A stretch of DNA of 64,000 nucleotides from Antedon mediterranea (lineage: Eukaryota > Echinodermata > Crinoidea > Comatulida > Antedonidae). Under the pieces are notes generated by a model. That model was not told the origin of the DNA and ran no database searches. It saw only the letters and a list, made by a program, of their open reading frames with translations. Below, one piece after another: positions 3,636 through 52,669 of the stretch (its first letter is position 1; each line of letters begins with the position of its first letter). Both the position numbers and the translations under genes were made by a program. Where the stretch lies: the NCBI RefSeq assembly GCF_964355755.1, contig NC_092672.1, forward strand, positions 35,460,501 to 35,524,500, in the 5' to 3' direction.

Positions 3636-6257
3636 CTATACAGCCGTAGTTTGAGTGGTTCTCTCGCGGACAGCCAAATATTCTTTAATGTCTTGCCGAA
3701 TGCATTTTTCAAGGATCGTTTTTTTACTCTCCTCTTCTGCCTTATTCCGTAGTATTACCTCAAAAAGTGGTACAATTCCAGCAATAAAAACCGCTGCATA
3801 TAGCTTCACTTGTTTTAACTGGTTGAAATTGTCAATGAACTTTAGCGTTGAGAAACCTACCCAAATTACTAGGCTCAGAATTAGAAGTTGCATGATTATA
3901 ATTAGAAGTTGAGTCTCTGGTGGTCTATACTTTGTTACAATGGTGTCAAAGAAAGTCTTTTCAATAGCAATTAAGCCTTCAGTATCTTGCCGGATTATCG
4001 GTAAAGATGGAATTTCTATAGTGATATCCGTTTGTATAGATACAGACGTATGACCTTCTGAAAGAGTATCTGTAGGTTGTTGGTTAAAAGCAGATTCTAC
4101 TGCAGTGCTATCTGATTGTACAGATACAGACGTATGACCTGCCGAAAGAGTATCTGTAGGTTGTGGATTAAAAGCAGATTCTGCTGCAGTGCTATCTGAT
4201 TGTACAGATATAGACGTATGACCTGCTGAAAGAGTATCTGTAGGTTGCGGGTTAAAAGAAGATTCTGATGCAGTGCTGTCTGATTGTACAGATACAGACG
4301 TATGACCTGCTGAAAGAGTATCAGTAGGTTGTGGGTTAAAAGCAGATTCTGCTGCAGGGCTATCTGATAATTGTGCATGGGTAGAAGTTTGATCTGAAAG
4401 AGTGTCGTAGTTATAATTAGTGGAAACTTCATTTCCAGCTAATAATGCCGTCCTTTCATCAGAATGTTCAATAATATTAAGTTCAAAGCAGTCCTCATCG
4501 TCCTTGTTTTTAAATTGTGGAAAAGAGGGCAGTTTATCACCAGAAACTTGCACCTTGTTATCTTTAATTAACTCATCAAATGCCGCAATCACTTGCTGAA
4601 GGAGAACCACATATCCTTTGTAATAACCGGTTATAATTGAAATGACGTAACCAATCACAATTAAAGTTATAACAGCAACGACCCCAGCGGTACCAGGGTT
4701 GACCAACAAACCGATGTAGAAGTACCAAATAATATCAAATATGTACCTAATGGTACATCCCCACTTTGTAGACAGAACAATGTTCACAGTAGCACTAATT
4801 GATATCACCCAAAACGGCGATAATAATGTCATCACAACTCCAGATAGTGTTTGGCCTACTGCCACTACTAGACATAAACGAACATAAAGATAAAATGTCG
4901 ATGTAGACATAACAACAGTAAAAATACCGTAGACTAATAAGAACGGTCCTACAAGAATATAAAACATAGTTTTACAGAGTAATCCTTTTTTGCTCAAACA
5001 CTTCCAGAACCAGTTTAACCCATCCTTCCAGTGGGAAATTGAAACAATCAATTTGATCCTTTCCTTCATTTCAAACGAAAGTTTGTGTAAACCACTGTAA
5101 TTATTTTCTGGAAGTTTCAATATCTTGAGAATGCAACGAACTTTCCAATTTGTTCTAATGTTGTGCAAATTAGAGTAATTATTCAAAAAACTAGTTTCAA
5201 ACCAAACTTGACACTTTAACCAGATTATCAACATAAAAATGCAAGCAAATATATAAAATGAATCAACAAAAATATTTGAATGCTGGCATATCATATTTAA
5301 AGGCTCCCAACACTTTGGTATGACTTCACTGTTCTTAAACGCTGCACGGCGACGGTGAAAATTATCGCTGTCCGAAACATGAGCAATGATGTAAGGTAGA
5401 TATGGTAGAAAACCAGCAAGTACCCATAAAATCAGCCAACGCAGAATAAAACTACATTTATGTTGATTTCCACTATAAAATATCAAGTGTTTAGTGCCTA
5501 TTGGTAGATCAGTCCGTAAGCTAAAATATTCTTTTCCATACTCATTCATTGGTTTTACGCGACACAAAAAGGAGACAAGGAACCAAATAAAGTAGAATGT
5601 GAATATGCTACTAAACCAGGAAAATGTGTTATACCAAGAATGTTTCATATTTTTACGAAGTTTAATTGAGCCATCGTCTGAATTTGTCCAGCATTCAAAG
5701 TACGTACTACTTTGAAGAAGTTGGTAATAACACCCTGGCGTTGTCGATATGCTGAAATTATAACGTGTAAGCTGTCGCTCAATGCAAACATCTTGTTTCA
5801 CATTGTCAATTTTTAGCTGCAGTAAAGAGTTTGCGATTATGTTTAATTTGTCTTCATTTTCAACATCAAAGAAACACTCTGGTACTGAGGTGATGTTTAA
5901 GGAGATGTGTTCTACACCAGGAGACAGAGTTCCAAGTGACAGGTGTTCAAAATCAAAAGGAAAAGTCGAAAGCAGTTCACCAATTTCCCCGACAGTCACA
6001 ACCCAGTGGTTGACATCAATCACTGTTGTATTGTCATAAAAACTTTTTCCAACAGAATCAGAAGCATCAACAAAAGATAACAACTTTACGTTGATAAAGA
6101 CAGCATCACCTTTTAAGAGTTCTTGCAAGACATCTGTGCCATCCATCTCTAGTAGACAGGTAGTGTTATCGAACTGGATCCTTGCAGAGATGTCTCTGGA
6201 TGACGTCACAATGAACATGGTTGCCAGAAGAAGTAAGATGCTCCGAAAACGTGTCAT
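3636..6257 (-). CDS. Gene 1: large polytopic membrane protein, unrecognised family
   Basis: 873 residues in one exon. I do not recognise the family. The start is the ATG at 6257 (MTRFRS). An in-frame ATG 13 codons upstream lies across the splice acceptor (CAG at 6285-6283), so it is intronic. Visible layout: signal peptide about 1-20; ectodomain about 21-205 with N-glycosylation sequons at N31, N75, N121 and N167 and several cysteines; hydrophobic segments near 210-232, 270-292, 330-350, 430-450, 451-470, 473-495, 503-520 and 522-545; hydrophilic region 550-780 with four 28-residue Ser/Thr-rich repeats; membrane segments 784-805 and 818-838; tail ending TTAV. An acidic dileucine-like ERTALL near 601 and the TTAV PDZ-ligand-like end both imply that this region and the C-terminus are cytosolic. 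The frame is fully open. Compared with genes 3 and 4, the membrane core is divergent, but the last ~55 residues nearly match gene 4. A receptor, channel or transporter are all possible. Confidence 0.85.
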   Translation of the reverse strand: MTRFRSILLLLATMFIVTSSRDISARIQFDNTTCLLEMDGTDVLQELLKGDAVFINVKLLSFVDASDSVGKSFYDNTTVIDVNHWVVTVGEIGELLSTFPFDFEHLSLGTLSPGVEHISLNITSVPECFFDVENEDKLNIIANSLLQLKIDNVKQDVCIERQLTRYNFSISTTPGCYYQLLQSSTYFECWTNSDDGSIKLRKNMKHSWYNTFSWFSSIFTFYFIWFLVSFLCRVKPMNEYGKEYFSLRTDLPIGTKHLIFYSGNQHKCSFILRWLILWVLAGFLPYLPYIIAHVSDSDNFHRRRAAFKNSEVIPKCWEPLNMICQHSNIFVDSFYIFACIFMLIIWLKCQVWFETSFLNNYSNLHNIRTNWKVRCILKILKLPENNYSGLHKLSFEMKERIKLIVSISHWKDGLNWFWKCLSKKGLLCKTMFYILVGPFLLVYGIFTVVMSTSTFYLYVRLCLVVAVGQTLSGVVMTLLSPFWVISISATVNIVLSTKWGCTIRYIFDIIWYFYIGLLVNPGTAGVVAVITLIVIGYVISIITGYYKGYVVLLQQVIAAFDELIKDNKVQVSGDKLPSFPQFKNKDDEDCFELNIIEHSDERTALLAGNEVSTNYNYDTLSDQTSTHAQLSDSPAAESAFNPQPTDTLSAGHTSVSVQSDSTASESSFNPQPTDTLSAGHTSISVQSDSTAAESAFNPQPTDTLSAGHTSVSVQSDSTAVESAFNQQPTDTLSEGHTSVSIQTDITIEIPSLPIIRQDTEGLIAIEKTFFDTIVTKYRPPETQLLIIIMQLLILSLVIWVGFSTLKFIDNFNQLKQVKLYAAVFIAGIVPLFEVILRNKAEEESKKTILEKCIRQDIKEYLAVRERTTQTTAV
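4026..4361 (-). repeat. 84-bp coding minisatellite in gene 1
   Basis: Four in-frame copies of an 84-bp unit encode about 28 residues each, with the core DSTAAESAFNPQPTDTLSAG. The copies differ by a few substitutions. Gene 2 has six copies, gene 5 about one and a half, and genes 3 and 4 only traces. Confidence 0.95.
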
Positions 6258-6282
6258 GGTTTGAGGAGTAAAGATAATGACT
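6258..6282 (-). other. Gene 1: 5' end of coding exon
   Basis: On the minus strand TTATTTTCAG precedes the exon, followed by 25 nt of 5' UTR to the start codon. The same acceptor and spacing recur before all five paralogues, which fixes the true initiator Met. Confidence 0.85.
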
Positions 6283-7215
6283 CTGAAAATAATCAAATTA
6301 ATGTACCTACACTTTGTGGATGAAGTTTTTTGGTATGCTACTATTGTATGTATTTATTCATGAGTCGCGTAGCTTGTCCACATAGGGGTAATTTGTGTGT
6401 TCCTCTTTAATTTAACAGGATTTTTGCCAAATAAACCATACCTTACATTACTGTACTTTACACCCCCGTATGCATTCAAGCTAATCACCTATACTAATAC
6501 CCTATACGATTAGTATATTTAGGCCATAATAAAGATGTCAATCAAGAGAACATGTCAACTTATATTGAAGTTGAAATGTCGTAATTTTTACATTTATTGG
6601 TACACAAAATAACTGAAAGAGCATTTATTTTTATAGGATACTCAGACGCCATTTTCAACAAAGCTCATGTGAAACCTGTTCCGGAAAATGGTTTCTACAG
6701 TACAAAATTAAATTGTATAATAGCAAAATATTATATTCAATACAATACTGTAACTTACAGTATTGTATGTAAGGCACATTAACATGAATTTATTTTGTGA
6801 ATATCCAAGCAAAGGTATAGATGCGATTGGAATAACTTACCAGTGACGACGAATAAGTGATCAAAACGAAATGATTACCAACAGTGACACTATTAGAAGT
6901 TGGTAAGAAGCAGCAAAGCAGAAGTTTATTTTATGTAATTTGAATAGTATTACAGTAATAGTCGGCCTGACTTGCACTAAAAAAAACGGAGGAATATAAA
7001 TACAAATGATCAAATGTCGATGAGAGAAATAAATATAATTTTAATATGAAACGATATATTAAAATGATACATTGGTGGTTATTAATTTCGAAATTGTAAA
7101 ACGGTTTTGAATTGGCCTCAATTGAATATAAACAATTTCCTTGTACATTCGACCGACGTGCATGGATACTAGCTGTATGTACAAATCAAAATTGATTAAC
7201 TAAAGACTTATATTA
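6283..7215 (-). promoter_or_regulatory. Gene 1: 5' cassette (non-coding exon 1, UTR intron, promoter)
   Basis: On the minus strand a perfect donor GTAAGT sits at 6840-6835, giving a 558-bp intron to the acceptor at 6283. Exon 1 ends at 6841 (CACTG|GTAAGT). Upstream lies a block conserved before every paralogue: CTAATAGTGTCACTG, an ATTCAAATTACATAA word, AGTGCAAGTCAGG, and an AT-rich TATA-like TATTTATATTCCTCCG. The transcription start cannot be fixed from sequence; it probably lies between 6870 and 6990. Confidence 0.75.
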
Positions 7216-10038: not shown

Positions 10039-10251
10039 TTTTTTAAAACGTTATGGTGAAAAGTACTGTATACGCAATATGATAATTATACACAGTATAT
10101 CTTATTTTTATTATTTTTTTAAATACTTATTTTGTGTAATCGGTAATTATCACTTTTACACATGTTTATTTTGCTTTGTGCTTATTACCATATTTATTTG
10201 TAATTTAAATGGATTAAAAAACTTTCTGTAACCCACATTTTTAGTGCAAGA

Positions 10252-10324
10252 GGTTTCGTAGTGTAGTGGTTATCAAGTCTGCATAACACGCAGAAGGTCC
10301 CCGGTTCGAGCCCTGGCGAAACCT
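10252..10324 (+). tRNA. tRNA-Val(AAC)-like sequence
   Basis: 73 nt. The acceptor stem GGTTTCG/CGAAACC pairs perfectly. The anticodon stem TCTGC/GCAGA encloses ATAACAC with U33 and anticodon AAC. The T arm has GGTTCGAGCC with one C-T mismatch in the stem, and the D arm has GTGTAGTGGTTATCA with one weak pair. TTTTT at 10326-10330 is a Pol III terminator. The mismatches and its place in a mobile insertion suggest a SINE head or pseudogene rather than a working tRNA gene. Confidence 0.6.
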
Positions 10325-10742
10325 ATTTTTCTTTAACTTTATGGTGAAATATACTGTATACGTAATATGATATAGAGTATATCTCGTTTTATTACTCGGG
10401 GTACCTGAGTCTAGGACTCTCTCATCTTTTCCTCTTCTTCTTCCATCCGGACACTATTGAGCAAAAAGTGCGATTTATAAAGTACTACTCCTCCCGCCCT
10501 TATTCGTTGTAGTATTGAGCTCGGATTTAGCATGAATATACTACAGGGACATGTCCTCAAAGCTATAGAGCCGGAATGTTTAATTTCATACCGGATGCAG
10601 CCATATCACGTCTCGAAGATGGTACCGTATAGCCGTATTTGGTAGCGCGGTTATTGATGTGTATGTGACGTTACATCCGGTCTTATGACGTCATTACAGC
10701 TTCTTTCGCTGTACCCCGAGTATTGCACATTCGTGCTTCTTT

Positions 10743-12639: not shown

Positions 12640-13560
12640 AGGAAATATTTTCCCTAATTCTCAAAACGAAACAAGGAAGCAAGTATTGTATTCAAAACAA
12701 TTGATTTTTTCAGAAATCAACTAAAACAACACGGCTACTACGAAAAAAAAGATATAATTTCATCAGCAGAGGTATCATATTATACCAAACAGGAAATGCC
12801 AAGAAGCTCATGAATATTAATTTCCTAACCACCACTGAAAAAAGGGTTTTAACTAGGAAAAAAACGAATTATTTATTTATTTTATTTTAAAACAATTATA
12901 TTCATTTCCCACCGTTTTTTAGTGCAAATGAGGTCGACTATTAAATACTATTCAAATTACATAAAACAAACTTCTGCTTTGCTGCTTCTTACCAACTTCT
13001 AATAGTGTCACTGTTGGTGATCATTTCGTGTTAATCACGTATTGGTAAGTTAATAGTACTAGTAAGTTATTCGACTTCCATCTATACCTTTGCTTAGATA
13101 TTCATAGAATAAATTCATGTTAGTGTGCCTTACATACAATACAGTAACTTATTGTATTGAATATAATATTTTGCTATTAAACAATTTAATTTTGTAGGCC
13201 CTTCCATTTTCCGAAACAGAATTCACAGGAGCTCAAGTGAAAAATAAATGTTCTTTCAGTTATTTTGTGTACCAATAAATATAAAAAGACATTTCAACTT
13301 CAATATAAGTTGACATGTTCTCTTGATTGACATCTTTAATTATGGCCGAAATATACTAATCGTATAGGCTACTAGTAGGTGATTACCTTGAATCTATGCG
13401 GGGGTGTAAAGTACGGTAATGTAAGGTATGGTTTATTTGGGAAAAATCCTGTTAAAATTAAAGAGGAACACATATACCACAATATGGACTAATAAATACA
13501 ATATTACCATAAAAAAAACTTTATCTAAAAAATATAGGTATATTAATTAATTATTTTCAG
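12640..13560 (+). promoter_or_regulatory. Gene 2: promoter, non-coding exon 1 and UTR intron
   Basis: Conserved cassette on the plus strand: TTATATTCATTTCCCACCG, AGTGCAAATGAGGTCGACTA, ATTCAAATTACATAA, CTAATAGTGTCACTG. Exon 1 ends at 13044 with donor GTAAGT at 13045-13050; a second GTAAGT lies at 13062. The acceptor TTATTTTCAG ends at 13560. The segment 12640-12900 is also found, inverted, upstream of gene 4 (about 43370-43670) and not upstream of the other genes. Confidence 0.8.
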
Positions 13561-13585: not shown

Positions 13586-16452
13586 ATGACACGTTTTCGG
13601 AGCATCTTACTTCTTCTGGCAGCCATTTGTATTGTGACGTCACCTAGAAACATCTCTACAAGGATCCAATCCGATAACACAACCTGTCTCCTGGAGATGG
13701 ATGACACAGATGTCTTGCAAGAACTCTTGAAAGGTGATGCTGTCTTTATCAACGTAAAGTTGTTATCTTTTGTTGATGCTTCTGATTCTGTTGGAACAAG
13801 TTTTTATGAAAATACAACAGTCATTGACGTCAACCACTGGGTTGTGGCTGTCGGGGAAATCGGTGAACTCCTTTTGACTTTTCCATTTGATTTTGAATTT
13901 CTATCACTGGGAACTCTGTCTCCTAGTGTGGAACACATCTCCTTAAACGTCACCTCCATACCAGAGTGTTTCTTTGAAGTTGACAACGAAGACAAATTGA
14001 ACGTAATCGCAAATTCCCTCTTCAGCTCGAAAGTGACAAAGATGCGAAACAAGAGGTCTGTATTGAACGACAGCTTGACAATTTTAACGTATGGGATTTG
14101 TCTTTAGCGTCTGCGGCTTATTACTCTATTCTTCAAATCAGTACGTACTTTCAATGCTGGCAAATTTCAGACGATGGGTCAGTTAAACTTAGTAAATTTA
14201 TGAAACATTCCTTGTATAAGATATTTAACTGGCTTAGTTCCATATTCGCACTCTATTTTATTTGGTTCCTTGTCTCGTTTTTGTGTCACGTAAAACCCAT
14301 GAATGAGAATAGAAAAGAATATTTGAGCTTACAGACTGATCTACCAATGGGGCCTAAGTATTTTCTAATACATAGTGGAAATCAGTATAACTGTATTTTT
14401 ATTCTACGTTGGCTGATACTATGGGCACTTGTCGGTTTGCTACAATATATACCTGACATCATTGCTAATTTGTTGGACAGTAATTCTTTTAACCGTCGTC
14501 GTGCAGCGCTTAAAGTCATTCCAGAGTGTATGCCTCAGTATCTGTGTTGCCAGAAAGGTATTTTCATTAATGTACCACAAATAATTCTTTGCTTCCTTCT
14601 GTTGATAAGCTGTTTAGCGCGTCAAGTCTGGGTTGAAACTCATTTAATAAACTTATCTAATTTGCACAAAATTAGAAGAAGTATGGATGTTCGTTTAATT
14701 CTAAAGATAATGAAACTTCCAAAAAATAATTACAGTGGTTTACACAAACTTTCGTTTGAAATGAAGGAACATATGAAGTTGATTGTTTCAATTTCCCACT
14801 GGAAGAATGGGTTAAACTGGTTTCGGGACTGTTTTACAAAAATAAACAATAAAGTAATACATATTACTATGCTTTGTATTCTTGGAGGACCGTTCTTAAT
14901 AGGCTACGGTATTTTCACTATTTTTATGTCTCTACCAATTGTTCATATTTTCTTGCGTTTCATGCTATTACATCCAGTAGGCATGGTAAATAGTTGTAAA
15001 GTTGTGACAATCTACATAGTGATATTGATGTACGGTATTTCTATGTTGTCTGTTCTGTTTGCAAATGTGAAATTAATCACTCCGCACATATTTATTATTA
15101 TTTGGTACTTCTACATCGGTTTGCTGGTGAACCCTGGTACCGCTGGAGCCGTTGCAGCGATAATTTTAATTGTGCTTGGTTACGTCATTTCAATTATAAC
15201 AGATTATTACAAAGAATATGTGGTTCTCCTGCAGCAAGTGATTTCGGCATTTGATGAGTTAATAAAAAATAACATGGTGCAAGTTTCTAGTGAGAAACTG
15301 CCATCTTTTCCACAATTTAAAAACGATGGCGAAGATGGCGAGGAGCATGAGACGATAGTAAGTATTATATTGAACCTTCTGATGAAACGGAATCATTATT
15401 TCCTGAAAATTTGGTGGCTTCCACAAAATAACTACATTTTTTCAGATCAAACTTCTGCCCCTGTACAATCAGATAGCACTGCAGCAGAATCTGCTTTTAA
15501 CCCACAACCTATAGATACTCTTTCAGCAGGCCATACCTCTGTATCTGTACAATCAGACAGCACTGCAGCAGAATCTGCTTTTAATGCGCAACCTACTGAT
15601 ACTCTTTCAGCAGGTCATACGTCTGTATCTGTACGATCAGATATCACTGCAGCACAATCTGCTTTTAATCCGCAACCTACAGATACTCTTTCAGCAGGTC
15701 ATACGTCTATATCTGTACAATCAGATAGCACTGCAGCAGAATCTGCTTTTAACCCACAAGCTACAGATACTCTTTCAGCAGGTCATACGTCTGTATCTGT
15801 ACAATCAGATAGCACTGCAGCACAATCTGCTTTTAACCCGCAACCTACTGATACTCTTTCAGCAGGTCATACGTCTGTATCTGTACAATCAGATAGCACT
15901 GCAGCAGAATCTGCTTTTAACCCACAACCTATAGATACTCTTTCAGCTAGTCATACGTCTGTATCTGTACAATCAGATAGCACTGCAGCAGAATATGCTG
16001 AACCATCAAGTGATAGCACATCTAAATTACTCGTAATACGGCAAGATACTGAAGGCTTAACTGCAATTGAAAAGACTTTCTTTGACACCATTGTAACAAA
16101 GTATAGACCACCAGAGACCGAACGTCTAACTATAATCATGAAACTTCTAATTCTGAGCCTAGTAATGTGGGTAGGTTTCTCTACGCTAAAGACCATCGCT
16201 GATTACGACGAGTTAAAACAAGTGAAGCTATATGCAGCCGTTGCAATTGCTGGTATTGTACCCTTTTTTGCGGTATTACTACGGAATAAGTCGGAAGAAG
16301 AGAGTAACAAAATTATCCTTGAAAAACGAATCCGGAAAGACATTAAAGAATATTTCAAAACACGACTGTCTGAAAATTGGTATGAAATTATGAACAGTGA
16401 TGGCGCCAACGACGGGAGTGGGGAGCCAAGGGCCCCCGCACGCGTTCTATGA
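13586..16452 (+). pseudogene. Gene 2: paralogue of the membrane-protein family, frameshifted
   Basis: Same architecture as gene 1. The start is ATG at 13586, 25 nt after the acceptor. A 1-nt deletion near 14018 (CCCTCTTCAG where gene 4 has CCCTTCTTCAG) shifts the frame in the ectodomain and stops it at 14107. The rest, to 16452, stays open in the other frame for over 780 codons, so the break is recent or an assembly error. A second pair of compensating shifts at about 15355-15435 replaces the segment homologous to gene 1's dileucine region (the alternative frame reads SDETESLF). Six 84-bp repeats follow. The C-terminus is of the SENWYEIMNS type shared with gene 3 and lacks the PDZ-ligand-like end. 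The 5' half is closest to gene 4. Confidence 0.8.
15469..15972 (+). repeat. 84-bp coding minisatellite in gene 2
   Basis: Six units of exactly 84 bp plus a partial seventh, in frame, encode the same 28-residue Ser/Thr-rich unit as gene 1. Other frames are also open across the array, an effect of the 84-bp period. Confidence 0.95.
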
Positions 16453-18428: not shown

Positions 18429-18510
18429 GTACACTCGATCGTAACTAATCGGCACCAGGTCCTTGGGTACTATTAAAGTAACGTGAAAATGGCCGAAAAT
18501 TTGGTAGATT

Positions 18511-22750: not shown

Positions 22751-22751
22751 G

Positions 22752-31058: not shown

Positions 31059-33398
31059 TCAAATAACCCTAGAACCAGGGAGCCTTGGCTCCCAACCTTC
31101 GTCGGCGCCACCACTGTTCATAATTTCATACCAATTTTCAGACAGTGGTTTTTTGAAATATTCTTCAATGTCTTGCTGAATGCATTTTTCAAGAATCATT
31201 TTTTTACTCTCCTCTTCTGCTTTATTCCGTAGTATTACCTCAAAAAGAGGTACAATTCCAGCAATGACAACAGCTGCATATAGCTTCACTTGTTTTAACT
31301 GGTTGAAATCGTCAATGAACTTTAGCGTTGAGAACCCTACCCAAATTACTAGGCTCAGAATTAGAAGTTGCATGATTATAATTAGAAGTTGGGTCTCTGG
31401 TGGTCTATACTTTGTTACAATGGTGTAAAAAAAAGTCTTATCAATAGCAGTCAAGCCTTCGCTATCTTGCCGGATTACCGGTAAAGGTGTGCTATCACTT
31501 GATGGTACAGATTCAGGAGGTCTAACTGAAAGCGTAGGTTGTGGAGTGGCACCAGATTCTACTGATTGTTCATTCACGTCTAATAATGATGTATTTTCAT
31601 CAGGATGTTGATTATTAAGGCGGTCCTCTTTGTTCTGATTTATAAATTGTGGAAAAGGGGACAGTTTATCACCAGAAACGTGCACCTTGTTATCTTTGAT
31701 TAACTCATCAAATGCCAAAATCACTTGCTGCAGCAGAACCACATATCCTTTGTAATAATCTGATATAATTGAAATGACGTAACCAATGACAATTAAAATG
31801 ATCGCTGCAACAACTCCAGCAGTACCAGGGTTCACCAGCAAACCGATGTAGAAGTACCAAATAATATCAAATATGTACCCAATGGTGCATCCCACCTTTG
31901 TTAACAGAACAATCTGCATAGAAAAACCACTGCCTATCCAAATAATAGATGTGCATATCACAACTCCTACTTTTCCACGAATATGTACCGAGCCTACTGA
32001 AAATAATAGCAAGAAACGGCAGTAAAGATAAACTATTGGTATTGACATCAACATAGTGGCAATACCGTAGACTATCAAGAACGGTACTGCGAGAAAACAA
32101 GTAGTAATAATGTATATTACTTTATTGTTTATTTTAAAACAGTCCCGAAACGCGTTTAACCCATTCTTCCAGTGGGAAATTGAAACAATCGACATTATCT
32201 TCTCTTTCATTTCAAACGAAAGTTTGTGTAAACCACTGTAATTATTTTTTGGAAGTTTCAGTATCTTCCAAATCCAAAGAAATTTTCGATATTTCGGAAT
32301 TGTGTGCAAATTAGAATAGTTATCCATTAAATCAGTTTCAAACCAGACTTGACACGTTAAACAGGTTATCAACAGAAGGAAGCAAAGAAATATATATAAT
32401 AAATTAATGAAAATATGTCCCTGGCAAAACGTTTTATCAGGCCTACACTCTGTCATGATTCCAGTGTTCTTTAGCGCTGCACGGCGATGGTAAAAAGAAT
32501 CGCTGTCCAAAACATTAGCAATGATGTAAGGTATAAATTGTAGCAAACCGACAAGTGCCCATATTATCAGCCAACGTAGAATAAAAATACAGTTATACTG
32601 ATTTCCACTATGTAATAGAAAATACTTAGGGCCCATTGGTAGATCTGTCCGTAAGCTCAAATATTCTTTTCCCGTCTCATTCATTGGCTTTACGTGACAC
32701 AAAAAGGAGACAATGAACCAAATAAAATAGAGTGTGAATATAAAACTAAGCCAGTTAAATATCTTATACAAGGAATGTTTCATAAATTTACTAAGTTCAA
32801 CTGACCCATCTTCTGAAATTTGCCAGCATTCAAAGTAGGTACTGCTTTGAAGAATAGAGTAATAACCCGCAGAGGCTAAGTGAATATCCCATGGGCTAAA
32901 ATTGTCAAGCTGTCGTTCAATACAAACCTCTTGTTTTGCATCTTTGTCACCTTTGAGTTGAAGAAGGGAATTTGCGATTACGTTCAATTTGTCTTCGTTG
33001 TCAACTTCAAAGAAACACTCGGGTACGGAGGTGACGTTTAAGGAGATGTGTTCCACACCAGGAGATAGAGTTCCGAGTGATAGAAATTCAAAATCAAATG
33101 GAAAAGTCAAGAGGAGTTCACCGATTTCTCCGACAGCCACAACCCAGTGGTTGACGTCAATCACTGTTGTATTTTCATAAAAATCAATTCCAACAGAATC
33201 AGAAGCATCAACAAAAGATAACAACTTTATGTTGATAAAGACAGCATCACCTTCCAAGAGTTCTTGCAAGACATCTGTGCCATCCATCTCCAGTAGACAG
33301 GTAGTGTTATCGGATTGGATCCTTGCAGAGTTGTCTCTGGATGACGTCACAATGCACATGGTTGACAAAAGAAGTAAGATGCTCCGAAAACGTGGCAT
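31059..33398 (-). CDS. Gene 3: polytopic membrane protein, intact paralogue
   Basis: 779 residues in one exon, start MPRFRS at 33398. Same plan as gene 1: signal peptide, glycosylated ectodomain (sequons in DNTTC, ENTTV, LNVTS), 7-8 membrane segments including the family signature WYFYIGLLVNPGTAG, a cytosolic region, and two last membrane segments. The variable region is the shortest of the five: no 28-residue repeats, only traces (ATPQPTLS, SSDSTPL), but an acidic dileucine-like ENTSLL as in gene 1. The tail is of the SENWYEIMNSGG type, ending RVI, so it lacks the T-x-V end of genes 1, 4 and 5. Function unknown. Confidence 0.85.
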   Translation of the reverse strand: MPRFRSILLLLSTMCIVTSSRDNSARIQSDNTTCLLEMDGTDVLQELLEGDAVFINIKLLSFVDASDSVGIDFYENTTVIDVNHWVVAVGEIGELLLTFPFDFEFLSLGTLSPGVEHISLNVTSVPECFFEVDNEDKLNVIANSLLQLKGDKDAKQEVCIERQLDNFSPWDIHLASAGYYSILQSSTYFECWQISEDGSVELSKFMKHSLYKIFNWLSFIFTLYFIWFIVSFLCHVKPMNETGKEYLSLRTDLPMGPKYFLLHSGNQYNCIFILRWLIIWALVGLLQFIPYIIANVLDSDSFYHRRAALKNTGIMTECRPDKTFCQGHIFINLLYIFLCFLLLITCLTCQVWFETDLMDNYSNLHTIPKYRKFLWIWKILKLPKNNYSGLHKLSFEMKEKIMSIVSISHWKNGLNAFRDCFKINNKVIYIITTCFLAVPFLIVYGIATMLMSIPIVYLYCRFLLLFSVGSVHIRGKVGVVICTSIIWIGSGFSMQIVLLTKVGCTIGYIFDIIWYFYIGLLVNPGTAGVVAAIILIVIGYVISIISDYYKGYVVLLQQVILAFDELIKDNKVHVSGDKLSPFPQFINQNKEDRLNNQHPDENTSLLDVNEQSVESGATPQPTLSVRPPESVPSSDSTPLPVIRQDSEGLTAIDKTFFYTIVTKYRPPETQLLIIIMQLLILSLVIWVGFSTLKFIDDFNQLKQVKLYAAVVIAGIVPLFEVILRNKAEEESKKMILEKCIQQDIEEYFKKPLSENWYEIMNSGGADEGWEPRLPGSRVI

Positions 33399-34500
33399 GG
33401 TTTGAGGAGTCGAGTAAATGACTCTGAAAATAATCAGATTCAGATTCGATGTATTAAGTCATTCATACATAGTATAATGATAATTGTTTTCTTGGCAGAA
33501 AAACACAAACAAAACAATACACACATAATATTTACATTCATTATCAACATGGAACTAACAACAACAACTGATCAAGCAATATAATATACAAAAGACCTAA
33601 TGACCTATCCTTGGAACTCATTGTTGTGTAGTCTAATAGCGCTAGGTAAGAATTAAAATTTATGTTTATTTGTTTTAACTGTTTTAATTAATCAATTAAT
33701 ATACCTACATTTTGTAGATTAAGTTTTTTATGGTACTATTGTTGTACTTATTAATCCATGATTCACGTAGCTTGTCCCATATAGGGGTAATTTGTGTGGT
33801 CCTCTTTAATTTTAACAGGATTTTTGCCAAATAAATCATACCTTACGTTACTGTACTTTACACCCCCGCATGCATTCAAGCTAATCACCTATAGTAACCT
33901 ACGATTAGTATATTTAGGCCAGTTGTAAATCAAGAGAACATGTTAACTTATATTGAAGTTGAAATGTCGTAATGGTACACAAATAACTGAAAAAACATTT
34001 AGTTTTATAGGATACTTAGACGCCATTTTTACTCGAGCTCCTGTGAAATCTGTTTCGGAAAATTGAAATTGTATAAAAACAAAACACTATGTTCAATAAG
34101 GCACATTAACATGGATTTATTTTGTGAATATCTAAGCAAAGGTATAGATGCGAGTGGAATAACTTACCAGTAATAACTTACCGCAATAATAAGTGATCAA
34201 AACGAAATGATTACCAACATTTACACTATTAGAAGACTAGTTGTAAAGAAGCAACAGCAAACGACAGAGGTCTGTATTATGTAATTTGAAAAGTATTAGT
34301 AGTCTGCCTCATTTGAACTAAAAAAACGTGGTGAAATAAATATAAATGGTCAAATTTCTATGAGAGAAATAGATATAATTTTAACATGAAACGATATATT
34401 GAAACGATATATTAAAATGATACATTGGTGGTTATAAATTTCGAAATTGTAAATAATTACCTTGTACGACGTGCATGGATATTGGCTGTACAAATCAAAG
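33399..34500 (-). promoter_or_regulatory. Gene 3: 5' cassette (exon 1, UTR intron, promoter)
   Basis: The acceptor ATTATTTTCAG ends at 33424 on the minus strand. Two donors GTAAGT lie 14 nt apart, beginning at 34181 and 34167. The upstream block has CTAATAGTGT, TTCAAATTACATAA and an AGTTCAAATGAGG variant of the conserved box. The intron is longer than in gene 1 (~745 bp) because of an extra AT-rich segment at about 33440-33690. Confidence 0.75.
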
Positions 34501-37839: not shown

Positions 37840-38608
37840 TTAAGTTAACTTCTGGATCATCATCATCAGTTGAAAGAGACTCGTGTGCACTGTTGCAACT
37901 ACTATCACCACTATCAACATTTTCAAAGGTACATGGTGTCAATAGGTTACGGTGAACAGTTCGCTCTCTGCCATAATTATTTCGGCGCACAGTGAATGTG
38001 GGCTGACCTTGGGTGTGATGAATTATGGTATATGGTGTTTCCTCCCATCTATCCCTCAGTTTATTACGGCCCCGCAATGACTTGTTAGCAACTAAAACAG
38101 AGTCTCCAACGTTCAAATCAACTCCACGGGACCTTTTGTTGTACGCATTTTTTTTGCTTCTTTCTTGCAGCATTTGCATGCGTCGCTGCTAAGTCGTAAG
38201 CTTCTTGAAGTTGGTTTCTGAGTCGATGGACAAAATCAGCTTCATTTGTGTCAGTGAATTCCTCTCCATCTGTCTCTAGTTCAAATACTAAGTCTGAAGG
38301 CACTCTCGGTTTCCGCATAAACATTAAAAAGAATGGAGTGAACCCAGTTGATGAATGCGTGGTACAATTGTAGGCGTGTGTCATGGTCTCTACATAGTCA
38401 CGCCACCGAGGTTTCTGGTGAGGCTGAAGCGTTCCCAACATATTGAGTAATGTAGAGTTGAATCGCTCCGTCATGCCATTCCCATGTGGGTGATAAGGTG
38501 TGGTTCGGCTCTTTTTTATTTTAAGGAGTTTGCACAGTTCCTGTATAACCTCAGCCTCAAAACACTTCCCTTGGTCGCTGTGTATCCTTTCCGGTGTCTG
38601 TAGTTGAG
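37840..38608 (-). mobile_element. Ty3/Gypsy integrase C-terminal fragment
   Basis: On the minus strand a frame from about 38608 to 38118 encodes the integrase core with HSDQGKCFE (second Asp of the DDE triad) and GNGMTERFNSTLL (Glu). A second frame, 38179-37840, encodes the C-terminal GPY/F-like module (GDSVLVANKSLRG, RWEETPYTI). A frameshift near 38160 separates them. It lies inside LINE-A, which resumes at 38609. The stop codon now lies inside the neighbouring MITE end. No LTR or other pol domain is present. Confidence 0.85.
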
Positions 38609-38773
38609 GTGTTACGTAGCGGTAGACGTTACCGTTCAAACATCTCTCGTACAAATAGGTTTTGTAACAGCTTTTACCCAGCTGCCATTCGGACACTGAA
38701 TGCTTGTTGTCAGTATACCGTACGAGAGTAATGTGACACTTGAGAGTGATGTTGTAATTGTTTTTGTTAGTTT
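38609..38773 (+). mobile_element. LINE-A 3' coding end, copy 3
   Basis: GTGTTACGTAGCGGTAGACG onward matches 3049 and 10965: the C-terminal LINE-A segment, up to TTGTTTTTGTTAGTTTTT, where the microsatellite element begins. Confidence 0.75.
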
Positions 38774-39597
38774 TTAGTCGCGTGGAAGCGACTCTATAGT
38801 TCACTATGTCGGTCGGTCGGTCTGTCTGTCTGTCTGTCTGTCGGTCTGTCTGTCGGTCTGTCTGTCGGTCTGTCTGTCGGTCTGTCTGTCTGTCTGTCTG
38901 TCGGTCCGGTATCACTATGCGTTTTATCGCTTTATGACCTTATCTTGATATCAGTTTAATCTAGCTAAGTCAATTTTTCACAGAATATTCCTTATGGCCA
39001 GGAATCGATGTGGTTATGTTTTCACGGTGCGCAATAAAAAATTACGCGGTCTACGCACGATTTAACGAAATCACGTTTGTAATCATATCTTAACAACCAT
39101 GAATCACAATTAAATAAAATTTGGTACTCATAAATTTCAGGGCATAAATCATCATATGGCAATACAATTACGTGCGTAGCGCATGTAACGCATGCGTACG
39201 CGCGCTTAAAATTTTCAAAATTTATTTTCGATGAAATAAGAGTACGTTTCAGGCAATTTTAAGCGTTTACAAAATTGCCATGAGTGCGCAGATTTTTGCG
39301 CGCGCACTGTGCGTTAAATGTTATTGCGCACTCTTTTTGCCTGATTTCTGTTTTCTTGACTTACTTTTCAACTCGAAATTGCGTTGTACGAGCACGTCAA
39401 AAGTGACAGGCTACGCACGTGTAAATTAAAAAAATATAAATGTTTTTAAACATTTCAACATTTTTAAACATGTTCAGTAATTTCGGTCAGTATAGTTCAC
39501 TATGTCGGTCGGTCTGTCTGTCTGTCGGTCTGTCTGTCTGTCTGTCGGTCTGTTTGTCTGTCGGTCCGGTATCACTATGCATTGTAGCACGCGACTT
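38774..39597 (+). mobile_element. Non-autonomous element with GTCTGTCGG microsatellite ends, copy 1
   Basis: Starts TAGTCGCGTGGAAGCGACT and ends GCACGCGACTTA (short inverted termini). Both ends carry CACTATGTCGGTCGG followed by (GTCT/GTCG)n and GGTCCGGTATCACTATGC. A unique core of ~550 bp, with TTACGTGCG and GCGCACTGTGCG words, has an inverted copy at 53815-54370. It interrupts LINE-A, which resumes at 39598. Confidence 0.85.
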
Positions 39598-40307: not shown

Positions 40308-42647
40308 CTATACAGCCGTAGTTTGAGTGGTTCTCTCACGGACGGCCAAATATTCTTTAATGTCTTGCCGAATGCATTTTTCAAGGATCCTTTTTTTACT
40401 CTCCTCTTCTGCCTTATTCCGTAGTATTACCTCAAAAAGAGGTACAATTCCAGCAATAAAAACAGCTACATATAGATTCACTTGTTTTAAATCATCGAAA
40501 TCAGCGATGGCCTTTAGCGTTGATAAACTTACCCAAATTACCAGGCTCAGAATTACAAGTTTTATGATTATAATTAGAAGTTGGGTCTCTGGTGGTCTAT
40601 ACTTTGTTACAATGGTGTCAAAGAGAGTCTTTTCAATTGCAGTTAAGCCGTCAGTGTCTTGCCGGATAATCGGTAAAGATGGAGTGCTATCTTGTGCAGC
40701 TAAATCATAACGTTCACCATCGTCATTGGTCCTTACTATCTTCTTTACCTTCGTCCATATATCCCTTGGCATCGTCTTTATCTTCGTCCATATATCCCTT
40801 GGCATCGTCTTTATCTTCGTCCATGTATCCCTTGACATCGTCTTTACCGTCGTCCATATATCCTCATCATCGCCCTCGTGCTCCTCATCAACGTCCTCGT
40901 TTATAAATTGTGGAAAAGAGGGCAGTTTATCACCAGAAACGTGCACCTTGTTATCTTTGATTAACTCATCAAATGCCGAAATCACTTGCTGCAGGAGAAC
41001 CACATATCCTTTGTAATAATCTGTTATAATTGAAATGACGTAACCAATGATAATTAAACTAATCGCTGCAACGATTCCAGCAGTACCTGGGTTCACCAGC
41101 AAGCCGATGTAGAAGTACCATATAATATTTAATATGTATCTAATGGCTAATCCCACCTTTGTAGACAGAACAACCACCATAATAGCACCACAAGGCATCC
41201 ACACCACCACCATCACAACTGTTTTTTTTACAGTAATATTTTCAATGTTTACGAACGGTAACAGACATAAACGCATGGTAAGATAAGTAATCGGCAAAGA
41301 CATAAGAATAGTATGCATACCGTAGAATATTAAGAACGGTACTACAAGAATAAAAAACATAGTAACATGTATTCCTATATTGTTTATTTTAAAATACTTC
41401 CGAAACCAGTTTAACCCATCCTTCCAGTGGGAACTTGAAACAATCAACTTGATATTTTCCTTCATTTCAAACGAAAGTTTGTACAAACCACTGTAATTAT
41501 TTTTTGGAAGTTTAAATATATGTAGAAATAAACGAACTGTCTCAATTCTTCTAACGGGCAAATTAGAATAGTTATTCATAAAATCAGTTTCAAACCAGAC
41601 TTGACGCGTTAAACAGGTTATCAACAGGACAATGCAAGCAAGTATATACATTAAATTATTGAAAATATTTCCCTGGCAAAATGTATTATCAGGCTTACAC
41701 TCTGGTATGCCTTCAATGTTCTTAAGCGCTGCACGACGACGGTAAAAAGAATCGCTGTCCGAAACGTTAGCAATGATGTAAGGTACAAATTGTAGCAAAC
41801 CAACAAGTGCCCATAGTATCAGCCAACGTAGAATAAAAATACAGTTATTTTGATTTCCACTATGTAATAGAAAATACTTAGGGCCCATTGGTAGATCTGT
41901 CCGTAAGCTCAAATATTCTTTTCCCGTCTCATTCATTGGTTTTACGTGACACAAAAAGGAGACAATGAACCAAATAAAATAGAGTGGGAATATATAAATA
42001 AGCCAGTTAAATATCGTATAGGAATGTTTCATGAATTTACTGAGTTCAATTGACCCATCTTCTGAAATTTGCCAGCATTCAAAGTACGTACTGATTTGAA
42101 GAATAGAGTAATAAGCCGCAGACGCTAAAGACAAATCCCATACGTTAAAACTATCAAGCTGTCGTTCAATACAGACCTCTTGTTTCGCATCTTTGTCACT
42201 TTCGAGCTGAAGAAGGGAATTTGCGATTACGTTCAATTTGTCTTCGTTGTCAACTTCAAAGAAACACTCTGGTATGGAGGTGACGTTTAAGGAGATGTGT
42301 TCCACACTAGGAGACAGAGTTCCCAGTGATAGAAATTCAAAATCAAATGGAAAAGTCAAAAGGAGTTCACCGATTTCCCCGACAGCCACAACCCAGTGGT
42401 TGACGTCAATGACTGTTGTATTTTTATAAAAACTTTTTCCAACAGAATCAGAAGCATCAACAAAAGATAACAACTTTACGTTGATAAAGACAGCATCACC
42501 TTTTAAGAGTTCTTGCAAGACATCTGTGCCATCCATCTCTAGTAGACAGGTAGTGTTATCGGACTGGATCCTTGCAGAGATGTCTCTGGATGACGTCACA
42601 ATGAACATGGTTGCCAGAAGAACTAAGATGCTCCGAGAACGTGTCAT
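40308..42647 (-). CDS. Gene 4: polytopic membrane protein, intact paralogue
   Basis: 779 residues in one exon, start MTRSRS at 42647; the upstream in-frame ATG spans the acceptor and is intronic. Same domain order as gene 1. The ectodomain (about residues 20-200) is nearly identical to genes 3 and 5. The loop after the fifth membrane segment is locus-specific (PFVNIENITVKK, with a possible N-glycosylation site). The variable domain carries an acidic patch (DEEHEGDDED) and three to four 11-residue repeats of the form WTKIKTMPRDI (33-bp units at 40740-40862), with no Ser/Thr repeats. The tail is RERTTQTTAV, a class-I PDZ-ligand-like end, nearly identical to gene 1. Function unknown. Confidence 0.86.
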   Translation of the reverse strand: MTRSRSILVLLATMFIVTSSRDISARIQSDNTTCLLEMDGTDVLQELLKGDAVFINVKLLSFVDASDSVGKSFYKNTTVIDVNHWVVAVGEIGELLLTFPFDFEFLSLGTLSPSVEHISLNVTSIPECFFEVDNEDKLNVIANSLLQLESDKDAKQEVCIERQLDSFNVWDLSLASAAYYSILQISTYFECWQISEDGSIELSKFMKHSYTIFNWLIYIFPLYFIWFIVSFLCHVKPMNETGKEYLSLRTDLPMGPKYFLLHSGNQNNCIFILRWLILWALVGLLQFVPYIIANVSDSDSFYRRRAALKNIEGIPECKPDNTFCQGNIFNNLMYILACIVLLITCLTRQVWFETDFMNNYSNLPVRRIETVRLFLHIFKLPKNNYSGLYKLSFEMKENIKLIVSSSHWKDGLNWFRKYFKINNIGIHVTMFFILVVPFLIFYGMHTILMSLPITYLTMRLCLLPFVNIENITVKKTVVMVVVWMPCGAIMVVVLSTKVGLAIRYILNIIWYFYIGLLVNPGTAGIVAAISLIIIGYVISIITDYYKGYVVLLQQVISAFDELIKDNKVHVSGDKLPSFPQFINEDVDEEHEGDDEDIWTTVKTMSRDTWTKIKTMPRDIWTKIKTMPRDIWTKVKKIVRTNDDGERYDLAAQDSTPSLPIIRQDTDGLTAIEKTLFDTIVTKYRPPETQLLIIIIKLVILSLVIWVSLSTLKAIADFDDLKQVNLYVAVFIAGIVPLFEVILRNKAEEESKKRILEKCIRQDIKEYLAVRERTTQTTAV
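40740..40862 (-). repeat. 33-bp coding repeats in gene 4
   Basis: Three full units and a partial one encode the basic, Trp-containing 11-mer WTKIKTMPRDI. Related units occur in gene 5 at about 50440-50570. They could form an amphipathic helix next to the acidic patch. Confidence 0.9.
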
Positions 42648-43360
42648 GGTTTGAGGAGTAAAGATAATGACTCTGAAAATAATCAAATTAATATACCTAC
42701 ATTTTGTGGATGAAGTTTTTTTATGGTAGTATTGTATTTGTTAATCCATGATTGGCGTAGCTTGCCCCATATAGGGGTAATTTGTGTGGTCCTTTTTAAT
42801 TTTAACAGGATTTTTGCCAAATAAACCATACCTTACATTACTGTATTTTACACCCCCGCATGCATTCAAGCTAATCATATATAGTACCCACGATTAGTAT
42901 ATTTAGGCCATAATTAAAGATGTCAATCAAGAGAACATGTCAACTTATATTGAAGTTGAAATGTCTTTTTATATTTATTGGTACACAAAATAACTGAAAG
43001 AACATTTAATTTTCACTTGAGCTCCTATGAATTCTGTTTCGGAAAATGGTTTCTATAGGAAGGGCCTACAAAATTAAATTGTTTAATAGCAACATATTAT
43101 ATTCAATACAATAAGTTACAGTATTGTATGTAAGGCACACTAACATGAATTTATTCTATGAATATCTAAGCAAAGGTATAGATGGAAGTCGAATAACTTA
43201 CCAGTACTATTAACTTACCAATAAGTGATTAACACGAAATGATTACCAACAGTGACACTATTAGAATTTGGTAAGAAGCAGCAGCAAAGCAGAAGTTTGT
43301 TTTATGTAATTTGAATAGTATTAGTAGTCGACCTCATTTGCACTAAAAAACGGTGGGAAA
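42648..43360 (-). promoter_or_regulatory. Gene 4: 5' cassette (exon 1, UTR intron, promoter)
   Basis: Acceptor CAG at 42675-42673, exon 2 from 42672. Two donors GTAAGT, starting at 43218 and 43201 on the minus strand, 17 nt apart as in gene 2. Conserved upstream words: CTAATAGTGTCACTG inverted near 43250-43264, AGTGCAAATGAGGTCGACTA near 43331-43350. Confidence 0.78.
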
Positions 43361-48640: not shown

Positions 48641-49300
48641 CTTATTATAGATCTATTTAAGAAAGGCCTTAAAACCTATTTGTTTCCTATGCATTAGAAT
48701 GTGAAGCGCCTTGATCAATTTGGAAAGGCGCTATACAAATGATAATAATGATATTATTATTATTAGACGGGTGGTAGCCAAACATTTAAATTGTTATTAT
48801 GTCAAGTCTGAGCATCATCTACATGAACATACATGCATATAAAACATTTCATAGCACCGAGACAGCATAATGACATCTTATTGGTAATTCAATGCTGTGG
48901 TCCCACATAGACTGTTTGGCAAGATGCGTAAACTGGGAGTATCACTGCCGATATGCAGATGGGTGTTGGACTTCCTCAGTAATAGATCACAACGTTAAGC
49001 TGAGTAATTTGATGTCGGATAAAGCAGTAGTTAGCACGAGAGTACCACAACGGTGCGTACTTCCCCCTTTTTTATTTTCTTTTTATATTTATGATTTTGT
49101 TGTTTCCTATGACATCTGTCTCATGGTCAAGTTTGCCGATGATACTACAATCGCAGGGCTTATAACAAATAATGATGAAGTAGAGTACCGAACTCAGGTC
49201 GATAATGTAATACACTGGTGTGCCTATAGCAACCTAATATTAAATGTTATCAAAACAAAGGAAGTCGTCGATTTTAGGAAAAAAATAATTTATGAATAAC
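48641..49300 (+). mobile_element. LINE-B 3' end joined to LINE-A reverse transcriptase
   Basis: 48650-48780 repeats the LINE-B 3' end and ATT tail of 8830-8925; 48781-49300 repeats the LINE-A RT with VVSTRVPQRCVLPPF, the catalytic FADDTTIAGL in frame, and NLILNV. The chimeric junction is the same as at 8926. Confidence 0.8.
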
Positions 49301-49465: not shown

Positions 49466-49479
49466 GCTCCGGGCCTGAT

Positions 49480-49857: not shown

Positions 49858-52669
49858 TTATACAACCGTAATTTGAATGTTTTCTTCACTGACACCCAAA
49901 TGTTCTTCAATTTCGCGACGGATGCATTTTTCAAGGATCTTTTTTTGACTCTCTTCTTCCGCCTTATTCCGTATTATTACCTCAAGAAGAGGTAAAATTC
50001 CAGCAATAAAAACAGCTGCATATAGATTCACTTGTTGTAACTCATCGAAATCAGCGATGGCCTTTACCGTTGATAAACTTACCCAAATTACTAGGCTCAG
50101 AATTAGAAGTTTTATGATTATAATTAGAAGTTGAGTCTCTGGTGGTCTATACTTTGTTACAATGGTGTCAAGAAAGAAGAAAGTCTTTTCAATAGTAGTT
50201 AAGCCTTCAGTGTCTTGTCGGATTACGGGTAAAGATGTGCTATCACTTGATGATTCAGGATGTCCATTTGAAGGATCAGTAAGTTGTGGGTTAAAAGCAG
50301 ATTCTGCTGCAGTGCTATCTGATTGTACAGATACAGACGTATGATCTGAGAGAGTATCTGTAGGTTGTGGGTTAGAAGCAGATTCTGCTGCAGTGCTATC
50401 TGGTGCAGCTAAATGATAACGTTCACCATTGTCATTGGTCCTTACTATCTTCTTTACCTTCGTCCATATATCCATTTGCATCGTCTTTATCTTCGTCCGT
50501 GTATCCCTTGGCATCGTCTTAACCTTCGTCCATATATCCCTTGGCATCTTCTTTACTATCGTCCATATTTCAACGACATCACGGTCCTCATCATCGTCCT
50601 CGTGGTCCTCATCATCGTCCTCGTGGTCCTCATCATCGTCCTCGTGGTCCTCATCATCGTCCTCGTGGTCCTCATCATCGTCCTCGTGGTCCTCATCATC
50701 GTCCTCATGGTCCTCATCATCGCCCTCGTGGTCCTCATCATCGTCCTCGTGGTCCTCATCATCGTCCTCGTGGTCCTCATCATCGTCCTCGTGGTCCTCA
50801 TCATCGTCCTCATGGTCCTCATCATCGTCCTCGTGGTCCTCATCATCGTCCTCATGGTCCTCATCATCGCCCTCGTGGTCCTCATCATCGTCCTCGTTTT
50901 TAAATTGTGGAAAAGAGGGCAGTTTATCACCAGAAACTTGCACCACGTTATCTTTGATTAACTCATCAAATACTGAAATCACTTGCTGCAGGAGAACCAC
51001 ATATCCTTTGTAATAACCTGTTATAATTGAAATGACGTAACCAATGATAATTAAACTAATCGCTGCAACGACTCCAGCAGTACCAGGCTTTACCAGCAAG
51101 CCGATGTAGAAGTACCAAATAATATTAAATATGTATCCAATGGATAATCCCACCTTTGTAAACACAATCATCATCATACCAAAACCACCACCTGCCCCCA
51201 TCGCAATATATATCAATGTCGTAATTTTTTTTATAGTAATATTATTATTATTATTATTAATTTTTGTCAAGTTTACAAACGGTGATATCATTAAACGCAT
51301 GACAAGATAAATTATCGGTAAAGACACCAAAATAGTCAGCATACCGTAGACAATTAAGAACGGTACTAAAAGAATAAAAAACATAGTAACATGTATTCCT
51401 ATATTGTTTATTTTTAAAAACTTCCGAAACCAGTTTAACCCATCCTTCCAGTGGGAACTTGAAACAATTGATTTGATCGTTTCCTTACAAACCACTGTAA
51501 TTATTTTTTGGAAGTTTCAATATAATATGTAGAAATAAACGAACAATAGACAAACCTTTAATGTCGGACAAATTAGAATATCTATTCATAAAATCAGTTT
51601 CAAACCAGTCTTGGCACGTTAAACAGGTTATCAACAGGGTAATGCAAGCAAGTATATAAAATAAATTAATCCAAATATTTCCCTGGCAAAATGTATTATC
51701 AGGCTTACACTCTGGTATGCCTTCAATGTTCTTAAGCGCTGCACGACGACGGTAAAAAGAATCACTGTCCAAAACATTAGCAATGATGTAAGGTATAAAT
51801 TGTAGAAAACCGAAAAGTGCCCATAGTATCAGCCAACGTAGAATAAAAATACAGTTATATTGATTTCCACTATGTAATAGAAAATACTTAGGGCCCATTG
51901 GTAGATCAGTCCGTAAGCTCAAATATTCGTTTCCATTCTCATTCATTGGTTTTACGCGACACAAAAACGAGACAAGGAACAAAATAAAATATAACGAGAA
52001 TATAATATTATAAATAAGCCAGTTAAATATCGTATACAAGGAATGTTTCATAAATTTACTAAGTTCAACTGACTCATCTTCTGAAATTTGCCAGCATTGA
52101 AAGTACGTACTGCTTTTAAGAATAGCGTAATAACCCCCAGACGCTAAGTTAATATCCCTTGTGCTGCTAAAATTGTCAAGTTTTCGTTCAATACAAACCT
52201 CTTGTTTCGCATCTTTGTCATTTTCGAGCTGAAGAAGGGAATTTGCGATTACGTTCAATTTGTTTTCGTTGTCAACTTCAAAGAAACACTCGGGTGCTGA
52301 GGTGACGTTTAAGGAGATGTGTTCCACACCAGGAGATAGAGTTCCCAGTGATAGAAATTCAAAATCAAATGGAAAAGTCAAAAGGAGTTCACCGATTTCC
52401 CCGACAGCCACAACCCAGTGGTTGACGTCAATGACTGTTGTATTTTTATAAAAACTTTTTCCAACAGAATCAGAAGCATCAACAAAAGATAACAACTTTA
52501 CGTTGATAAAGACAGCATCACCTTTTAAGAGTTCTTGCAAGACATCTGAGCCATCCATCTCCAGTAGACAGGTAGTGTTATCGGATTGGATCCTTGTAGA
52601 GATGTCTCTGGATGACGTCACAACACACATGGCTGCTAGAAGAAGTAAGATGCTCCGAAAACGTGTCAT
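49858..52669 (-). pseudogene. Gene 5: paralogue of the membrane-protein family, frameshifted
   Basis: Start MTRFRS at 52669, 25 nt inside exon 2. The frame is open to a stop after KLPKNNYSGL near 51485. There a 20-nt deletion relative to gene 4 (the HKLSFEMKE-coding stretch) shifts the frame; the remaining ~540 codons, to 49858, are open in the other frame. No ATG starts that second part, so a full protein would need correction of the shift. The ectodomain is nearly identical to genes 3 and 4. The variable domain is the most elaborate: about 14 acidic heptads (DEDHEDD), four WTKVKTMPRD-type 11-mers, and about one and a half 28-mer Ser/Thr units. The inter-helix loop has an Asn run (NNNNN). 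The end is ITVV, again T-x-V. Confidence 0.82.
50577..50895 (-). repeat. 21-bp coding minisatellite (acidic heptads) in gene 5
   Basis: About fourteen to fifteen in-frame 21-bp units encode DEDHEDD, with two HEGD variants. Gene 4 has the likely ancestral single unit (DEEHEGDDED). Such Asp/Glu/His runs could bind divalent cations; that is inference. Confidence 0.95.

Follow-up and report, generated by a model that had tools for sequence, protein, structure and literature searches.

The genomic stretch analysed here (hereafter the window) comprises 64,000 nucleotides of the crinoid Antedon mediterranea (contig NC_092672.1, which we call C3; C3:35460501-35524500) and contains a cluster of genes for large polytopic membrane proteins. 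The listing of open reading frames (ORFs) revealed five long paralogous frames, g1 to g5, given below with the evidence for each. Positions refer to the window unless a contig is named.

3636..6257, minus strand: g1, 873 amino acids (aa), open, apparently a single coding exon (ORF, tree, and ratio of nonsynonymous to synonymous substitution, dN/dS or omega)
13586..16452, plus strand: g2, inverted copy with a 1-nt deletion near 14020 (ORFs, DNA, pairwise alignment with g4)
31059..33398, minus strand: g3, 779 aa, open (ORF, dN/dS)
40308..42647, minus strand: g4, 779 aa, open, the reference copy (ORF)
49858..52669, minus strand: g5, with a 20-nt deletion near 51500 (ORFs, DNA, pairwise alignment with g4)

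An initial annotation of the window had described five paralogues at these positions, four on the minus strand and one (g2) inverted, with two decayed members. The frames and coordinates agree with this description: g1, g3 and g4 are open, and g2 and g5 are broken by a single indel apiece, the deletions being defined relative to g4. Chance does not account for the paralogy, because g2 shares inverted arms of 470-503 nt with the other four genes at 90-96% identity, because the whole-gene dN/dS of g1, g3 and g4 is 0.64-0.72, and because all 8 rows for tandem arrays within the reading frames show a period that is a multiple of 3, compared with 5 of 20 rows elsewhere in the window (some rows describe the same array). 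The motif WYFYIGLLVNPGTAG, which had been noted as common to the five genes, is present in four of them; in g5, K replaces N.

The cluster does contain five genes within the window, but these proved to be only a sample of a nine-locus cluster and of 22 family loci in the genome (354 Mb in 18 contigs were searched). A search with g4 identified 15 loci on C3 and C9 (loci outside the window carry L numbers), among them L009, a 30%-identical member, and the longer L010 on C9. A weak match of L009 on C2 (E = 0.118) turned out to be a genuine distant relative, and through it three loci were found on C2 and four on C1. The 22 loci lie on four contigs: nine in C3 35.40-35.57 Mb (about 167 kb), three in C3 36.26-36.32 Mb, three on C9, three on C2 and four on C1. 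Twelve have an uninterrupted frame, including L001, which extends beyond the usual C-terminus, and 10 are broken, which supports and extends the tandem expansion with decay noticed initially. Four fragments (C3:35437832, C3:36306972, C9:8243285 and C9:8461531) stand outside this count, and two weak matches on C4 (E = 0.085 and 0.062) were rejected after inspection. L012 (C2:37.04 Mb) is a member in two halves about 1.8 kb apart, which are probably separated by an insertion.

As judged from sequence profiles, the family consists of two deep branches, C3/C9 and C1/C2, joined by a collinear match. The branch profiles A4 (12 rows from 11 loci) and A5 (8 rows from 6 loci) were aligned by hhalign over 576 collinear columns with 16% identity (probability 98.9%, E = 1.3e-17). 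A tree of 22 rows separated the branches with support 100/100 and grouped the main C3 cluster as one (67/92). The five groups defined by genomic place required 5 changes on this tree, the minimum possible being 4 and the mean after shuffling 12.0. The tree rests on the N-terminal part of the proteins, mostly 400 aa or less, with the g2 C-terminal piece and the four fragments excluded; it has two long branches, and 8 of its 19 inner forks are weak.

Hydropathy profiles indicated a common architecture: a signal-peptide-like N-terminus, an ectodomain of about 190 aa, transmembrane segments TM1-TM8 (TM5 being weak), a hydrophilic loop, TM9-TM10 and a basic tail. The seven or eight segments that had been annotated before the loop are correct as a hydropathy count, and two segments follow it; these counts are approximate, as the same scan picks up weak segments in the ectodomains of some members and fails to detect TM10 in L013 and L014. 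The ectodomain has four Cys residues that are invariant in nine aligned members, and it is acidic in the C3/C9 branch. It also bears N-x-S/T sites, and the annotated glycosylation stands as a prediction from those sites only. The charge distribution places the ectodomain outside and the TM1-TM2 and TM3-TM4 loops inside. After TM4 the topology is ambiguous: TM5 is weak, and an even number of segments would place the basic tail outside. The hydrophilic loop would be on the cytosolic side.

The motif [DNP][LI][PS]xGx(8)GN in the TM1-TM2 loop is found in both branches (21 of 22 loci; L008 is without it), and TM7-TM8 and TM9-TM10 are conserved. C-termini could be read for 21 of the 22 loci, the 3' half of L012 being absent from the set and the L006 end being taken from the other frame. 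Eight of them (g1, g4, g5, L004, L005, L006, L007 and L008) have the form S/T-x-[VILF], which we take to be PDZ-ligand-like. The length of the hydrophilic loop is 99-241 aa, and 63-90 aa in C1/C2 members. After TM8, this loop bears in-frame minisatellites in g1, g2, g4 and g5, as follows.

4020..4368, minus strand: g1 loop minisatellite, 84 nt (28 aa), in-frame
15461..15999, plus strand: g2 loop minisatellite, 84 nt, in-frame
40738..40863, minus strand: g4 loop minisatellite, 33 nt (11 aa), in-frame
50447..50568, minus strand: g5 loop minisatellite, 33 nt, in-frame
50583..50897, minus strand: g5 loop minisatellite, 21 nt (7 aa, acidic), in-frame

Omega was estimated along the gene in a close set of four copies (g1, g3, g4 and L001) and in all pairs of seven of the 12 open copies. 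L010, L013, L014 and L018 were excluded, and L009 entered whole-gene pairs only, where its dS was not computable. Two segments of g4 define the contrast.

42006..42587, minus strand: g4 ectodomain, residues 21-214, with the four invariant Cys and N-x-S/T sites; omega 0.41 (four close copies)
41148..41390, minus strand: g4 TM4-TM6, residues 420-500; omega about 1.6 (four close copies) or 1.06 (seven copies)

In the four close copies, the omega of TM4-TM6 was 1.57 (95% codon bootstrap 1.14-2.28). Diversifying selection in the exposed ectodomain was not found, the omega there being 0.41 (0.30-0.57), or 0.34 in a gap-trimmed check. The loop following TM1-TM3, TM7-8 and TM9-10 gave 0.49, 0.31 and 0.52, respectively. 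The TM4-TM6 value was unchanged with a second aligner (1.57) and was 1.63 (1.10-2.62) once codons near gaps were removed, leaving 53 codons. In the gap-trimmed data, dS was 0.25 in TM4-TM6, 0.27 in the ectodomain and 0.27 in TM7-8; because these values are similar, the TM4-TM6 signal represents an excess of nonsynonymous change. For g1 and L001, the counts of differences within this segment are 25.0 (nonsynonymous) and 2.0 (synonymous). On the evidence of these segment-wise ratios, positive selection on TM4-TM6 is likely. The hydrophilic loop is variable as well. The initial annotation had called the pattern of expansion and decay typical of sensory, immune or gamete-recognition families; this comparison needs qualification, since the ectodomain is under purifying selection and the fast part is TM4-TM6 together with the variable loop.

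The region upstream of the coding frames is also shared. Window copies have an upstream block of up to about 0.7-1 kb in common, and in all five genes the word TTATTTTCAG ends 25 nt upstream of the ATG, with its splice-acceptor-like AG at the following positions.

6283..6284, minus strand: g1 splice-acceptor-like AG of TTATTTTCAG, 25 nt upstream of the ATG
13559..13560, plus strand: g2 splice-acceptor-like AG
33424..33425, minus strand: g3 splice-acceptor-like AG
42673..42674, minus strand: g4 splice-acceptor-like AG
52695..52696, minus strand: g5 splice-acceptor-like AG

A more general acceptor-like word, YYYYCAG, is present in all 15 C3/C9 loci, ending 1-31 nt before the ATG (in the most divergent members, 19 nt in L009 and 1 nt in L010), whereas by chance 2.3% of 35-nt window stretches contain it. 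This word was picked post hoc, after the sequences had been inspected, and 13 of the 15 loci are copies that are at least moderately close, which means that the counts are not independent. A stricter acceptor pattern with a longer pyrimidine tract, which was tried first, was found in 6 of 15 C3/C9 loci and 2 of 4 C1/C2 loci. In g3 and g5, the similarity to other copies breaks just upstream of the acceptor-like site, which is compatible with an intron there. The simplest reading of these sequences is that genes of the C3/C9 branch have a putative 5'-untranslated-region (5'-UTR) exon, an intron and a single coding exon.

Searches for known relatives bore out the description of the family as unrecognised at the sequence level. 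Scanning of at least part of every one of the 22 loci gave no Pfam-A match at cut-off, NCBIfam gave no match for three proteins, and PDB sequences gave no credible match for one protein and two profiles. An earlier description of the family was not found among open papers. AlphaFold models of g4, computed with seven window rows (g2 and g5 entering as separate pieces) or for its ectodomain alone, had mean pLDDT values of 32.7 and 37.6, respectively, and were unusable because the alignment was too shallow; these proteins may therefore still belong to a known fold.

Several weak matches were attributed to chance or to low-complexity sequence. They include Fibrinogen_BP in the repeat-bearing loop of L007 (E = 0.00017; 20.5 bits, cut-off 50) and Herpes_LMP1 on L010 (E = 0.00075; 19.3 bits, cut-off 26), as well as Spike_JR1, TFIIF_alpha, Glycoprot_B_PH2, TTC3_9th, OST48_N, PDR_assoc, LPD11, DUF7860, Pho86, VpsT-like, SCO4226-like, Ycf70, WDR75, OST48, DPM3 and LdpA (the last in NCBIfam). 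Among PDB sequences, matches to a matrix protein (E = 1.4), to SpoIIIAG, fibroin and a designed exoframe (best E = 0.088) and to spike S1 (best E = 0.14) were dismissed on the same grounds.

Small-molecule receptors bind, and channels conduct, within the membrane, and immune and gamete receptors usually vary in the ectodomain. The omega values of 0.41 for the ectodomain and 1.57 for TM4-TM6 favour a variable site embedded in the membrane over recognition by the ectodomain. Apparently single coding exons and tandem clusters were found, as read from open frames and positions in the genome sequence. The architecture, clustering and decay match those of odorant-receptor repertoires, and the rapidly changing segment is membrane-embedded; for these reasons, we favour a chemoreceptor-like or receptor-channel role. 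We tentatively propose that these genes, described here from one genome, encode a lineage-expanded multi-pass cell-surface family that may work like a chemoreceptor repertoire. In such a protein, the constant ectodomain and constant helices would serve folding, trafficking and coupling to a constant partner, and the variable TM4-TM6 would form the site, either a ligand pocket or a pore lining, that differs among paralogues. The PDZ-ligand-like ends would suit a receptor or channel tethered at a specialised membrane, and signalling could be ionotropic or proceed via a second protein. It would be a bolder and rather improbable step to regard the family as an ambulacrarian superfamily of chemoreceptors or receptor-channels unrelated to G-protein-coupled receptors (GPCRs), with a constant ectodomain, a variable TM4-TM6 site and odorant-receptor-like gene architecture (an intron in the 5'-UTR, one coding exon, and tandem arrays with many broken copies). 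If the proposal is true, it adds an ambulacrarian receptor-like family whose variable site is inside the membrane and for which the catalogues searched contain no relative; to our knowledge, few candidate receptors exist for hemichordate chemosensation. Whatever the function, a precise test is made possible by the family with its two branches, by the acceptor-like site and by the located fast segment.

The echinoderm surreal-GPCRs, which are odorant-receptor-like GPCRs of the rhodopsin family, bind their ligands within the membrane. The present proteins gave no 7tm Pfam match and, unlike surreal-GPCRs, possess a predicted signal peptide, a Cys-bearing ectodomain of about 190 aa, a long loop and two extra membrane segments. 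Insect OR/GR-type 7TM ion channels have the N-terminus inside and no signal peptide, in contrast to the signal peptide and outer domain found here. Likeness to the surreal-GPCRs is in the genes: the odorant-receptor-like genes of sea cucumber are described as mostly single-exon and tandemly arrayed, like those of vertebrates and other invertebrates, and those of sea urchin as an independent lineage expansion (PMC7042368). Clusters of intronless olfactory receptor genes are reported for human and zebrafish (PMC3155783). The 7TM ion channels of the insect OR/GR type are presented as polytopic and divergent chemoreceptor channels that occur throughout the animals apart from chordates (PMC9998090); the present family is likewise polytopic and divergent. 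The sea urchin Sp185/333 (SpTransformer) genes are another ambulacrarian case of tight clustering with internal repeats; they are reported to be small two-exon genes with anti-pathogen products, whereas the present family encodes polytopic membrane proteins in apparently one coding exon.

A number of observations weigh against the chemoreceptor-like proposal. Neither the 7TM GPCR profile nor any Pfam family of chemoreceptors, including the 7TM ion channel of insect OR/GR type, was matched in the 22 loci (at least part of each), and 22 loci are few for an odour repertoire. Two shared features do not extend across the family: the S/T-x-[VILF] ends all belong to the C3/C9 branch, with none among the six C1/C2 ends read, and YYYYCAG was near the ATG in only one of four C1/C2 loci checked. 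The omega of TM4-TM6 over the seven open copies was 1.06 (0.79-1.39) and exceeded 1 in only 10 of 21 pairs; relaxed constraint may therefore explain the segment. After a sliding scan, the borders of the segment were adjusted by four codons; the comparison covered six to nine segments, uncorrected for multiple testing; and the bootstrap takes codons as independent and pools related pairs. The proportion of synonymous differences (pS) varies along the gene, suggesting gene conversion, which may distort omega. Stretches 41-70, 301-330 and 401-430 likewise reach a ratio of 1, with few changes, and the omega of 0.77 (0.52-1.21) for TM1-TM3 in the four close copies leaves the constraint there unclear.

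It is quite possible that the proteins are remote, fast-diverged members of a known polytopic superfamily, such as derived GPCRs, 7TM ion channels, anoctamin/TMC-like or polycystin-like proteins. In its favour are the identity of only 16% between the two branches themselves and the failure of AlphaFold on shallow input; that no locus of the 22, each scanned at least in part, reached a Pfam cut-off and that PDB profile searches yielded nothing credible speak against it. Somewhat less likely, the paralogues might be subfunctionalised channels or transporters, in which TM4-TM6 lines a pore or substrate path and varies with the substrate, with no role in recognition. The polytopic body, C-terminal hairpin and charged tail, the PDZ-ligand-like ends (8 of 21) and the rapid change within the membrane all suit a channel or transporter, but no Pfam match at cut-off or credible PDB sequence match to one was found, and 10 broken loci of 22 is heavy decay for a housekeeping transporter.

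The immune, allorecognition or gamete-recognition role suggested initially appears unlikely. Tandem expansion with decay, minisatellite-length variation in the hydrophilic loop and a domain on the secreted side are what such receptors might show; however, the ectodomain is among the most conserved parts and under purifying selection (omega 0.34-0.48), and the diversity sits in TM4-TM6 and in the putatively cytosolic loop. Carriage and dispersal of the gene by a mobile element or virus, to which the apparently intronless coding sequence and the pieces of reverse transcriptase, integrase-like and DDE transposase sequence between or near copies might point, is highly improbable, given that window copies share the upstream block and acceptor-like word, that copies group by place on the tree, and that no relatives were found in viral contigs or prokaryote genomes at the sensitivity of pattern scans. 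The chemoreceptor-like proposal, the channel or transporter and immune or gamete readings, and membership in a known superfamily are not mutually exclusive.

Ten other frames of the window were scanned against Pfam, and six of them matched transposon domains; four of these matches reached the cut-off and two fell short of it. Non-LTR (long terminal repeat) retrotransposon reverse transcriptase pieces, with an endonuclease match slightly under cut-off, lie among the genes and beyond them at 60359-62248, 23101-23508, 48874-49296 and 58698-59006. An LTR-retrotransposon-like integrase core match below cut-off lies at 38118-38936 (minus strand), in a frame that overlaps a TGTC simple-repeat tract (38807-38906), and a DDE_Tnp_4 transposase fragment, presumably Harbinger-like, at 18508-18852 (plus strand). 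Retrotransposon-like frames at 59191-59466 and at L011 (C9:8461000-8462200) encode NPGP-type peptides, which we take to be 2A-like.

The window also contains a 236-nt unit in two tandem copies with 99% matches (29949-30421), probably a very recent duplication, and arrays of a unit of about 101-103 nt at 25055-25825 and 29305-29547, about 3.5 kb apart and in opposite orientation by eye. Only one Rfam match in the window reaches the gathering score, a tRNA-Val (AAC) at 10251-10325 (plus strand). In the genome as a whole, COX1 matched none of the contigs. A homeodomain search gave 36 matches, of which 12 are Hox-type homeoboxes lying together on C2 (7.83-8.21 Mb) and two are ParaHox-like homeoboxes about 90 kb apart on C5 (29.97-30.07 Mb); these Hox and ParaHox loci are labelled L019-L032. 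We take the C2 homeoboxes to be Hox1-8, Hox9/10 and three of Hox11/13 type (one inverted) and the C5 pair to be Xlox and Gsx. A Hox6-like gene points towards hemichordates, and the arrangement suggests a Hox cluster of ambulacrarian type.

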